A stretch of 29,636 nt of DNA from a virus. The stretch lies in IMG/VR virus record IMGVR_UViG_3300031774_000097, positions 1-29,636 of that record; one strand, written 5' to 3'. The notes beneath the pieces are model-generated. The model was not told the origin of the DNA. It saw nothing but the letters and a program-made list of their open reading frames with translations, and did not search any database. Shown here piece after piece: positions 1 to 7,895 of the stretch. The translations under genes were made by a program, and so were the position numbers. Every line of letters starts with the position of its first letter. Position 1 is the stretch's first letter.

Positions 1-161
1 TTCAGGCGATGAGAGTGAGATTATTTAATAAAGCAGTTTCAAAAGGTCAATTACAAACAGCAGCACAAATCCTGGATTCATTAGGCAAAGTTATTGGAGA
101 GTCAGTAGAGACAGTCAATATTCAAGCACCTGAACTGTCAATAAAAGTAGAAACAAAGTAG
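1..161 (+). CDS. 3' fragment of a phage gene, possibly small terminase subunit
   Basis: An open frame enters from the left edge (first full codon at base 3) and stops at TAG 159-161, giving a 52-residue C-terminus that ends ELSIKVETK. It contains LFNKAVSKGQLQTAAQILDS, a helical, alanine/glutamine-rich segment followed by LGKVIGES. Small terminase subunits of phages often end in a similar helix-rich oligomerisation segment, so this is my best guess, but no DNA-binding domain is visible because the 5' part is missing. It lies on the plus strand while the tail genes at the far end lie on the minus strand. No terminator is evident after the stop. The identity is uncertain; that it is coding is likely but rests only on the open frame and composition. 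Confidence 0.45.
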   Translation, partial: QAMRVRLFNKAVSKGQLQTAAQILDSLGKVIGESVETVNIQAPELSIKVETK

Positions 162-291
162 TACATACTTATTAGTAACAAAGATTAGCAATATATGTTT
201 AAGGTAGGCGGTAATCGTATATAACATAAATATTTTTAATACTACACCCCCCATTGATAAGTTATTGTAATGTAATAATAATGTTATTTTG

Positions 292-320
292 GTGTACTTC
301 TGATGTCAGTATGGTATAAT
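292..320 (+). promoter_or_regulatory. Extended -10 promoter driving the structured RNA
   Basis: A perfect extended -10, TGGTATAAT (312-320), is present; the matching -35 position (about 292-297, GTGTAC) is weak, as is common for extended -10 promoters. Transcription would begin near 327. The gene-free stretch 162-291 upstream is AT-rich and holds an inverted repeat TACACC (about 245-250) / GGTGTA (291-296) that brackets a second weak promoter-like TTGATA; nothing else is recognisable there. Confidence 0.6.
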
Positions 321-326
321 AAAGAG

Positions 327-670
327 TGAAGGGAGAAAAAATTTTTCCTTCTTACATATCTTGTTGGGAGTCTCGGATTCGACATCCAGACCAAAGAGTT
401 TCAAACCTCCCAGACTTCAAGAGTAGTAAGTATCCTAGAAAGCTACATCACTTGAAGAAGAAGTCAAATAGGTTCGACTATGATTTTGACTTCATGCCTT
501 GCAAGAGACACAAAGATTCCCTTTTATCTCTAAGCTGTTGCACTCAGAGCGACCCAGAGAGCCAACAGGAGCTTAGATCTATTGACTAGCTTTCTTACTC
601 TCCTCAACAGCACTCGCAAGCCCTACAACAGCTTACAGATAAAAGGCATCTAATTCCTTTTATCTTTTTC
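327..670 (+). ncRNA. Structured RNA / attenuator-like leader
   Basis: This stretch begins about 7 bases after TATAAT, ends in an intrinsic terminator, and contains many inverted repeats. TCTTG 359-363 pairs with CAAGA 418-422 and TGGGAG 365-370 with CTCCCA 407-412, enclosing a small hairpin GGAT 375-378 / ATCC 384-387 whose loop region contains TTCGAC. GAAGTCAAA 460-468 pairs perfectly with TTTGACTTC 485-493. The 20-mer at 521-540 (CTTTTATCTCTAAGCTGTTG) is complementary at 19 of 20 positions to 626-645. Part of the same arm (530-540) can instead pair with CAACAG 563-568 and GCTTAG 571-576. The long pairing also consumes the 5' arm of the terminator (638-646), so terminator and long stem are mutually exclusive. 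It could be a riboswitch-like leader of the gene at 690 or a free-standing phage RNA. I do not recognise a known family: no tmRNA tag, RNase P or 6S signature was found. Confidence 0.6.
638..669 (+). terminator. Intrinsic terminator overlapping an antiterminator pairing
   Basis: GATAAAAGG (638-646) pairs with CCTTTTATC (656-664) across a 9-base loop and is followed by TTTTT (665-669). The 5' arm is also the 3' half of the 20-bp pairing with 521-540, the arrangement expected of an attenuator. Confidence 0.65.
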
Positions 671-678
671 ACTTATCC
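670..678 (+). promoter_or_regulatory. CACTTATCC leader element, copy 1
   Basis: CACTTATCC follows directly on the U-tract of the preceding terminator and ends 11 bases before the ATG at 690. The same nonamer (or CATTTATCC) precedes the genes at 1559, 2363 and 7896. Its role is unknown. Confidence 0.45.
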
Positions 679-689
679 AAAAGTTAATT

Positions 690-983
690 ATGACCTACGC
701 AGTGATGACCTACAGAGGAGCTTCCAACGGCTGGCAAGATGCAAGCGACAACAACATTCGCAAGCATCAGCAAGACGCTTTAGAGTATTGCGAACTACTT
801 TCAAAAGTAAGACCACAATTCATTCATAAAGTAGAAGTTCTAAGTGAACCAACTCTTCCAATGTTTACATCGTTGAGAATTGGCGAACCAAGAAATGAAG
901 TTTACACACTTCCAAAAGGTCAATACTTAAAACTAAGAAAAAGAAACTTTATTCAAAAAATCATTAGGAGGTTATTTTTCTAA
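690..983 (+). CDS. Hypothetical small phage protein, basic C-terminus
   Basis: 97 residues, starting MTYAVMTYRG. The N-terminal half is mixed alpha/beta in character (GWQDASDNNIRKHQQDALEY) and the last 25 residues are strongly basic and hydrophobic (LKLRKRNFIQKIIRRLFF), which could contact nucleic acid or membrane. I do not recognise the family. It is the first gene after the structured leader and terminator, and the CACTTATCC element lies 11 bases upstream of the ATG; there is no Shine-Dalgarno sequence. An AGGAGG at 966-971 inside its 3' end serves the next gene, whose ATG overlaps its TAA (TAATG). If the upstream RNA is an attenuator, this gene and the ones coupled to it would be its targets. 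Confidence 0.7.
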   Translation: MTYAVMTYRGASNGWQDASDNNIRKHQQDALEYCELLSKVRPQFIHKVEVLSEPTLPMFTSLRIGEPRNEVYTLPKGQYLKLRKRNFIQKIIRRLFF

Positions 984-6777: not shown

Positions 6778-6999
6778 TTATATAGTTATTTCCTCCTTAT
6801 GTTCAATAACTTCAGGTCTGGAAGAATGTACACTCAATTTATTTTTCATTACAGGTGCAAAGTAATTATCAATACTTCTTCTAATTAATTCAGAAATAGA
6901 AGTCCCAGGTCTGGAATGTTCTTTTAATAATTCGTACTGTGATTTAGTAATTTGAATGGAAATCCTATGTAAAGCATAAGGATCAGATGATTGAGTCAT
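6778..6999 (-). CDS. Ribbon-helix-helix regulator
   Basis: 73 residues from the ATG at 6999 (MTQSSDPYALHRISIQITKS); the frame is open to 7053 but that stretch lies in the promoter. The segment RISIQITKSQYELLKEHSRP, then GTSISELIRRSIDNYF, is a textbook ribbon-helix-helix: one strand for DNA contact, helix A, turn, helix B. CopG/Arc-type dimers bind operators and usually repress their own operon. It is the first gene after a strong promoter and heads the group with the zinc-finger-like protein, a hypothetical protein and the nuclease. It may bind the promoter spacer or the TGAATGR repeats, but this is not shown. The C-terminal 25 residues are charged and probably flexible. Confidence 0.75.
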   Translation of the reverse strand: MTQSSDPYALHRISIQITKSQYELLKEHSRPGTSISELIRRSIDNYFAPVMKNKLSVHSSRPEVIEHKEEITI

Positions 7000-7021
7000 A
7001 ATAAATAATATATATGACATC

Positions 7022-7050
7022 ATTGTAGTATATATATAACGTCTTGACAA
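7022..7050 (-). promoter_or_regulatory. Promoter of the RHH-nuclease operon
   Basis: On the minus strand TTGTCA (7050-7045), a 17-base spacer, and TACAAT (7027-7022). Transcription should start near 7015, 16 bases ahead of the RHH start codon. ATGACATCAT (7013-7022), overlapping the -10 and start site, has inverted ATGA/TCAT arms and is a possible operator. Confidence 0.7.
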
Positions 7051-7064
7051 CAATATATTTACAT

Positions 7065-7096
7065 AAAAAAAACTGCCAGTAGATTAGGCTGGCAGT
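7065..7096 (-). terminator. Strong intrinsic terminator after the SSB-like gene
   Basis: Read on the minus strand: ACTGCCAG (7096-7089), 9-base loop, CTGGCAGT (7079-7072), then a run of seven T (7071-7065). It separates the SSB-like gene from the RHH operon, which then starts from its own promoter. Confidence 0.9.
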
Positions 7097-7119
7097 CAGG
7101 ATTGCGTTTAACTCTTTTA

Positions 7120-7722
7120 TTATCCTCCGAAAGGATCTTCATAGGATAAAAGTTTTTTTAAATCAAAACCTTTTGACTTAACTTTCTCCCATGCTGATTC
7201 CAACTCTGGTTGATCGTCTTCATCCTGTGGCTCTATTTGAACGTCATAGTTCCAACGACCACCTTCTCTATCTAAGGAAAGAGATAAATCCCATGCCATT
7301 AGATTTTTATACTTTCTGTTTAAAGATAGTTTTCTGATTTTGCTAAGAATTTGATATTGGTCTGCTTCTAAGATACGAACCATTTTGTTCTTGTAATCGT
7401 AGATAGGCCAAACATATGTTTCTTTTGCTTCTGCTGGTTCTGTACTTTGGAATTTTGTTCCTCTTGTATAAGAACCACCCATTTCAGTAAGAATTTCTTC
7501 TTCTGTTGGTTTGCTCATAAATCTAAAGGACTTACCTTTTTCTCCGTGAACAGACTCTCCGTAGATTTTCCAAAAGATTAGGGGATCTTCTTCCAATAAT
7601 GCGAAAGAAACTGGTTCTTTTGGATCTACTTTTGATGGGTTTAAATATGAAGAAACAAGTGGGCGATCCCCCTGCTCTTCTGCTTTTTTGACTTTTTCTT
7701 CAAAAGTGGCTGAAAATTTCAT
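7120..7722 (-). CDS. Probable phage single-stranded DNA-binding protein
   Basis: 200 residues, MKFSATFEEKVKKAEEQGDR. The middle holds the pattern YVWPIYDYKNKMVRILEAD, then QYQILSKIRKLSL, then LMAWDLSLSLDREGGRWNYD: a beta strand carrying 'rvrileadqyqI', a helix, and 'wDlslsr...g..Y.v'. This is the layout I associate with phage gp32-like or OB-fold single-stranded DNA-binding proteins, in which the core strands are followed by a flexible acidic region (EPQDEDDQPELESAW here) and a short C-terminal tip ending DPFGG. Its place, divergent from the primase-helicase and near a nuclease, fits a replication role. The classification rests on pattern memory, not on an alignment, so a different DNA-replication accessory protein is possible. 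Confidence 0.55.
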   Translation of the reverse strand: MKFSATFEEKVKKAEEQGDRPLVSSYLNPSKVDPKEPVSFALLEEDPLIFWKIYGESVHGEKGKSFRFMSKPTEEEILTEMGGSYTRGTKFQSTEPAEAKETYVWPIYDYKNKMVRILEADQYQILSKIRKLSLNRKYKNLMAWDLSLSLDREGGRWNYDVQIEPQDEDDQPELESAWEKVKSKGFDLKKLLSYEDPFGG

Positions 7723-7759
7723 AATAGTGAAATTGTTAAATAGCGTTTGTAATCAATGG

Positions 7760-7774
7760 GCAAAATATATTTGC
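7760..7774. repeat. 15-bp near-palindrome in the divergent region, possible operator
   Basis: GCAAA (7760-7764) and TTTGC (7770-7774) are inverted around ATATA, between the starts of the divergent SSB-like gene (7722) and the primase-helicase promoter (7794). A weak minus-strand promoter-like TTGTGC lies at 7778-7773, so a protein bound here could affect the SSB-like gene. Apart from this and the promoter elements, 7723-7793 holds nothing I recognise. Confidence 0.35.
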
Positions 7775-7793
7775 ACAATCTCATTCTAATAGC

Positions 7794-7822
7794 TTGACCC
7801 GTAATTGTAAATAGCCTAAAAT
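7794..7822 (+). promoter_or_regulatory. Promoter of the primase-helicase gene
   Basis: TTGACC (7794-7799), a 17-base spacer, TAAAAT (7817-7822). The predicted start near 7829 leaves a 67-base leader with a hairpin and the CACTTATCC element. Confidence 0.7.
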
Positions 7823-7828
7823 GAAAAA

Positions 7829-7895
7829 ACCTCCGAAGTCTGGCGAATTGCAAACCAGAAATCAGAGGCTTTCACTTATCCTAATAGAATGATAC
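7829..7895 (+). promoter_or_regulatory. Hairpin leader with CACTTATCC element, copy 4
   Basis: The leader starts almost directly with a stem: CCTC (7830-7833) pairs with GAGG (7865-7868) and TCTGG (7839-7843) with CCAGA (7855-7859), an interrupted hairpin; then GCTTT, CACTTATCC (7873-7881), and the ATG 14 bases further on. An overlapping frame ATGATACATGAC at 7889 ends after six codons. There is no Shine-Dalgarno sequence. Confidence 0.5.

Follow-up and report, generated by a model that had tools for sequence, protein, structure and literature searches.

The phage and the locus

The DNA analysed here, called the window throughout, is the whole of IMG/VR record IMGVR_UViG_3300031774_000097 (29,636 bases), and the evidence base consists of sequences of uncultivated phages throughout. 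The window encodes a lambda-like tail protein J. Among isolates, the Prochlorococcus siphophages MED4-117 and P-HS2 come nearest to it (43% identity), and it has a 72% match to the single-cell virus record AG-345-A17. Based on these matches, the ocean cyanobacterium Prochlorococcus is probably the host of this phage family.

The 3' end of a gene of ~148 aa occupies positions 1–163 (plus strand). It adjoins a divergent large terminase in relatives; its name, putative small terminase, reflects this position only, as a profile search matched it to no family. The next gene, and the first 3' of the RNA described below, is a small ORF of 97 aa (690–983, plus strand) with neither a Pfam nor a PHROG match. 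The same ORF, or a distant relative of it, follows the RNA in every contig of the first set of relatives that is long enough. Shortly downstream of the RNA, one relative (L070) encodes an anti-restriction protein (6915–7829, plus strand) that is ArdC-like and has a metallopeptidase domain, consistent with an early host-takeover operon.

The stretch from 312–320 to the ATG at 690 is intergenic. An earlier note on this DNA had described a perfect extended −10 element, and TGG-TATAAT was found at 312–320 (plus strand; TATAAT at 315–320), with TATAAT or a near variant also preceding the RNA in relatives. Transcription would be driven from 315–320 with a predicted start at ~327, and the RNA would extend from about 328 to about 669, some 340 nt. 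In relatives, the 200 nt 5' of the RNA start contained 1.5 copies of ATGTCA/TGACAT per locus (0.14 after shuffling), and the NtcA-like GTA-N8-TAC was present in 28 of 64 loci against 3.6, the loci being related in both counts; operator or nitrogen-control sites are possible.

The gap from terminator to ATG is 20–40 nt, and a simple scan of the window found no promoter-like site from the terminator to the ATG at 690. The gap does contain the motif CACUUAUCC (670–678, plus strand), which occurs before other phage genes too: the 9-base pattern YAYTTATCC lies on the plus strand at 670, 1541, 2349, and 7873, 5 to 15 nt 5' of the starts at 690, 1559, 2363, and 7896, with 5 matches in the window against 1.45 expected. 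It may be a translation or processing element inside a likely 5' UTR. Upstream of the last of these starts, that of a primase gene, positions 7794–7881 (plus strand) carry TTGACC-17-TAAAAT followed by an internal-loop hairpin, CUUU, and CACTTATCC, a second structured leader that is shorter and similar in plan to the RNA at 327–670.

Folding of 327–670 gave −92.5 kcal/mol compared with −72.9 ± 4.7 for dinucleotide shuffles (z = −4.19; none of 100 as good), which bears out the description of a heavily structured RNA of ~340 nt. The same stretch holds an open frame of 87 codons starting at GTG 326, the conservation of which would have spoken for a protein instead. This frame is interrupted by stops in three of the five nearest relatives (L004, L015, and L097), and the stretch that holds it is wholly replaced in most other relatives; it is thus not a gene. 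Nor was any conserved frame for a ribosome-type leader peptide seen in the relatives.

Searches for known RNA families and isolated phages

For the window and 20 relatives, Rfam 15 returned nothing at the gathering score; four elements run in E-value mode gave chance-level matches only. The RNA of the window had no tRNA or tmRNA match with ARAGORN or Rfam, and, with the relatives included, it matched no described riboswitch aptamer family in Rfam. The earlier note had likewise failed to match it to tmRNA, RNase P, 6S, or known riboswitches. Among isolated phages, nothing was found by DNA search with the RNA or by protein searches with the 97-aa ORF and the upstream gene, and a DNA pattern derived from the RNA gave four unrelated chance matches only in 84,980 genomes.

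Sampling of relatives

Relatives were gathered in two sets. The first began with 22 loci matched by the 97-aa protein at 690 and was enlarged with two DNA patterns from the RNA. For unbiased sampling, a second set of 80 loci was fetched via the upstream gene alone, among the matches listed, of more than 590 relatives; 5 of them overlapped with the first set. An exact 15-mer, GTCTCGGATTCGACA, was also tried as a relative finder and was rejected, as it retrieved mostly unrelated phages, and the locus labelled L035 proved to be GC-rich DNA unlike this locus.

The same 3' core was present in 77 of the 80 upstream-gene loci (among the matches listed), and the other three contigs end 2 to 281 nt past the upstream gene, too early for the core. 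This sampling shows the predicted RNA to be universal at this position in the phage group. In the first set, the last 170 nt before the ATG align in all loci, and the sequence from the −10 box to ~518 aligns only within groups. The RNA consists of two units that are independent of each other, a switch core that is conserved at the 3' end and a 5' domain that can be exchanged, a division that the earlier note had missed.

The 3' core holds two competing helices

The core (520–646, plus strand) is a rod closed by helix P1 (520–529/637–646 and 531–540/626–635, with one C.C mismatch at 530/636), with upper stems and the near-invariant sequences CACUC (541–545) and CUUA (572–575). Three strands account for its competing states: S1, the antiterminator strand CCUUUUAUCU (520–529), pairs with S2, AGAUAAAAGG (637–646), and S2 also pairs with S3, again CCUUUUAUCU (656–665), which is continued by a U-run to 669. 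S2 and S3 form a terminator-like hairpin (637–646/656–665, −9.0 kcal/mol) followed by TTTT. The run at 665–669 is of the UUUUU type in the window; runs are shorter or broken in several relatives.

For P1, 93.1% of cells were paired and 12 of 20 pairs were compensated across 73 relatives (71 distinct rows); neither the share of paired cells nor the covariation score was equalled in 500 shuffles. The long-range pairing of 521–540 with 626–645 proposed from the window is real. The other pairing proposed for the same arm, with 563–576, is present in the window but was rejected as a conserved alternative, since even in the best register it was paired in 63% of cells in the relatives, against 93% for the long-range helix. 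Over the whole core structure, 85.3% of cells were paired compared with 75.1% after shuffling (0 of 500), and pairing fell to 37–56% when the partner was slid by one to three columns.

For the competition between the two helices, 36 distinct S1/S2/S3 triples from 73 elements were examined with S2 randomly reassigned, following an earlier run on 34 elements of the first set. With a shuffling that leaves the relatedness of the sequences in place, S1:S2 was paired in 339 of 360 cells against 306.4 ± 3.6, and S3:S2 in 343 of 360 against 312.7 ± 4.0; none of 10,000 shuffles reached either value. The strands were chosen by rule and by eye, which biases the absolute percentages and not the contrast with the shuffles. 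The S2 variants AGAU, AGGU, AAGU, GGAG, and AACUGA/AAUUGU are each matched in both S1 and S3 (e.g. ATCT/AGAT/ATCT, ACTT/AAGT/ACTT, and CTCT/GGAG/CTTT for S1/S2/S3). The same changes recur against different backgrounds: at P1 position 8, C-G stands in for U-A both among members of core type I (L007 and L065) and between L068 and L069/L070, whose cores are otherwise near-identical.

What has been conserved is a mutually exclusive switch, since S2 covaries with its partner strand in each of the two pairings: the design is either P1 closed (antiterminator) or S2 paired with S3 (terminator-like hairpin), never both in full. An attenuator is defined by two exclusive helices with a common strand, one of them a terminator hairpin, and this is what the S1:S2 and S3:S2 covariation describes. 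The suggestion that the antiterminator arm blocks the 5' arm of the terminator therefore held up in homologues, where its proponent had asked for it to be checked. The P1 and terminator states are almost in balance, the calculated difference being −2.0 ± 2.2 kcal/mol, with P1 favoured in 60 of 73. One relative (L146) keeps the core and P1 and has lost S3, so the core can persist without the terminator; from 2349–2474 and downstream, this locus has a different long inverted repeat (GTTGTAAG...CTTACAAC) in place of S3.

A model of the core, R1, scored 121 bits on the core of the window. It found nothing in 386 genomes drawn evenly from the cyanobacterial phylum, a sample with no positive control among its genomes, and gave no more than a chance-level match in MED4-117 and P-HS2. 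Matches of R1 on the opposite strand were rejected as a second gene, being due to the self-complementary core. Weak second matches on the minus strand lie 360–480 nt downstream of the main core in L147 (1223–1321, E 0.02) and L154 (2543–2641, E 0.07), and these may be chance.

The 5' domain is exchanged as a cassette

The exchangeable slot, 328–518, makes up the 5' two-thirds of the RNA. In the window it holds a 5'-terminal hairpin (331–348, plus strand; 331–337/342–348), in which 3 of 7 pairs are changed on both sides among six relatives of the same family, and a domain designated family A (359–506, plus strand). This domain is closed by a helix of 359–364 and 366–368 with 497–499 and 501–506, and contains hairpins at 370–391, 415–457 (inner stem 423–428/441–446), and 460–493. 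For the six relatives of family A, 95.9% of cells were paired and 13 of 51 pairs compensated (0 of 500 shuffles). In family C (11 sequences), which fills the same slot, 94.5% of cells were paired and compensation was seen in 17 of 36 pairs. Families E, F, G, D, B, and others have different folds there, most with compensations of their own. Several families have 5'-terminal hairpins.

The 75 distinct 5' domains fell into 27 groups on clustering; because some starts are mis-called in the more distant loci, the number of families is stated as ~20. About 20 unrelated folded domains take turns in the slot, in phages with up to 98% identity in the flanking gene. Some families have sub-modules in common, so exchange also takes place below the level of the whole domain. 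In particular, the apical loop (C)AGUAUCCUAGAAAA (425–446 in the window) recurs in L011, L057, L062, L123, L146, and L150, in different 5' families and on differing closing stems (GUAG/CUAC, CUAG/CUAG, and GACG/CGUC), in the manner of a small contact motif that can be transplanted.

The flanks are no guide to the 5' family. Where the upstream genes of two loci were at least 97% identical in nucleotides, the 5' family was the same in only 21% of pairs, and at 75–85% identity in 6%. L069 and L070 have upstream genes that are 98% identical and near-identical cores, yet their 5' domains belong to families E and C, respectively. A single 5' family was found with up to 5 core types, in free combination with the ~8 core sub-types, and core type, 5' family, and downstream ORF type likewise combine freely. 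At the level of sequence comparison, these data show exchange of a cassette at fixed borders, the −10 region and S1. As types, the 5' domain shows no covariation with the core, so nothing in the comparison points to control of the switch by the 5' domain.

Interpretation of the RNA

On balance we consider it probable that the RNA is the leader of an early operon, ending in a bistable transcription attenuator, and that diversifying selection acts on the exchangeable RNA domain in its 5' slot. The earlier note had already suggested a phage leader, and one of unknown type is supported by the position of the RNA and the lack of an Rfam match. A sigma-70-type promoter would produce the ~340-nt RNA. 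Pairing of S2 with S1 would close the core rod and permit read-through into the small ORF and beyond; pairing of S2 with S3 would form the terminator-like hairpin and, with the U-run, end the RNA near 669. Expression of the small ORF would depend on read-through, because no promoter-like site lies between the terminator and its ATG. The balance could be set by a factor that binds the core, or by how the RNA is folded behind the polymerase. Our best guess for the contact site of the core is CACUC (541–545) with CUUA (572–575), and, given the free combination of core, 5' family, and ORF type, this partner is probably one that all hosts of these phages share, e.g. polymerase, ribosome, or nuclease.

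The 5' two-thirds would form a separate, self-contained domain that is swapped as a cassette between phages. Since the types combine freely, this domain probably acts on its own and probably has a job of its own, either to stabilise or shield the transcript or to bind a host or rival-phage factor that varies between strains. We infer that diversifying selection causes the exchange, and such fast replacement of whole folds would reflect antagonistic or frequency-dependent selection.

A possible role for the 5' domain, compatible with the leader model, is counter-defence or inter-phage immunity, with the domain serving as a decoy, inhibitor, or specificity tag swapped under frequency-dependent selection and the attenuator as control of the 3' end. 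Such a role agrees with the swapping of cassettes at one fixed site whose flanks are almost identical, with the ~20 fold families, with the early position, and with the ArdC-like anti-restriction gene in the same operon of one relative. Lysogenic immunity in particular is unlikely: neither a tyrosine integrase (PF00589) nor an HTH_3 repressor (PF01381) was detectable in the window record and four relatives of 36–43 kb (completeness uncertified), and the Rfam c4 antisense RNA was not matched. As a tentative extension, the slot could be an RNA specificity cassette, in which unrelated domains are swapped at the speed of counter-defence or receptor-binding genes, so that the phages would draw on a shared pool of RNA effectors (decoys, inhibitors, immunity tags) mounted on a common switchable 3' platform.

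Rather unlikely, in our judgement, is a GOLLD-like phage RNA that is stable and stands alone. Here S2:S3 would serve only to end transcription; after release, renewed pairing of S2 with S1 would close the mature molecule, and leaky read-through or another promoter would supply the small ORF. The large folded 5' domain, the 5'-terminal hairpins of several families, the slightly greater stability of P1 than of the terminator state in most relatives, and the universal presence of the RNA at the locus would all suit such a molecule. A stable RNA would have no need, however, for a closing helix that overlaps the terminator; the ATG follows the terminator by 20–40 nt free of promoter-like sites, and the CACUUAUCC ahead of the ORF is like the 5' ends of other phage messages.

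A packaging RNA like the phi29 pRNA would fit the neighbourhood, as both terminase genes, the large and the putative small one, are neighbours of the RNA in relatives, but it is very improbable: the folds swap while both terminase proteins stay 88–100% identical in most, and packaging needs no attenuator. Chance structure or a protein-coding stretch, for which the 87-codon frame at GTG 326 could be cited, is already contradicted by the breaks in that frame and by compensatory changes throughout the RNA, and deserves almost no credence.

Comparison with known systems

In pbuE-type adenine riboswitches, the terminator invades the aptamer's closing helix P1, whose 3' strand doubles as the terminator's 5' arm, and little energy separates the two states. 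The early-operon leader proposed here has the same topology and states near in energy; it differs in its phage context and in having no known aptamer, ligand, or metabolic gene downstream. The P4 CI and P1 c4 immunity RNAs are phage leader RNAs that act through termination, with a specificity that varies between phages. The leader proposed here is alike in type and in its variation from phage to phage, whereas c4 (RF01695) has no match and is a short antisense RNA as opposed to long multi-helix domains; nor was any sign of lysogeny seen in the window record and the four relatives of 36–43 kb.

The manA, wcaG, and PhotoRC-II RNAs are structured RNAs in the likely 5' UTRs of marine cyanophage genes (PMC2864571). 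The present RNA is likewise structured and in a likely phage 5' UTR, whereas those are single conserved motifs before metabolic or photosynthesis genes and are Rfam families, none of which matches here. GOLLD is a giant, highly structured RNA of phages and prophages with a conserved 3' and a less conserved 5' region, the function of which is unknown (PMC12286853). The resemblance, a phage-borne structured RNA with a conserved 3' and a variable 5' region, is in plan only: the present RNA is ~340 nt in length compared with >800 for GOLLD, does not match the GOLLD covariance model, ends in a bistable attenuator, and has a 5' part that is swapped for unrelated folds and not merely diverged. GOLLD is its nearest relative in style, not by membership.

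Implications for the phage family

The swapped front folds suggest an RNA engaged in an evolutionary contest. Attenuator leaders and large phage RNAs are already known kinds; we know of no case in which ~20 unrelated RNA folds alternate in one slot on one conserved attenuator, in phages that are otherwise near-identical at the locus. If the cassettes are effectors, this abundant group of ocean phages would offer a ready set of RNA tools for use on cyanobacterial factors or rival phages, and the role of large phage RNAs would become testable through simple cassette swaps.
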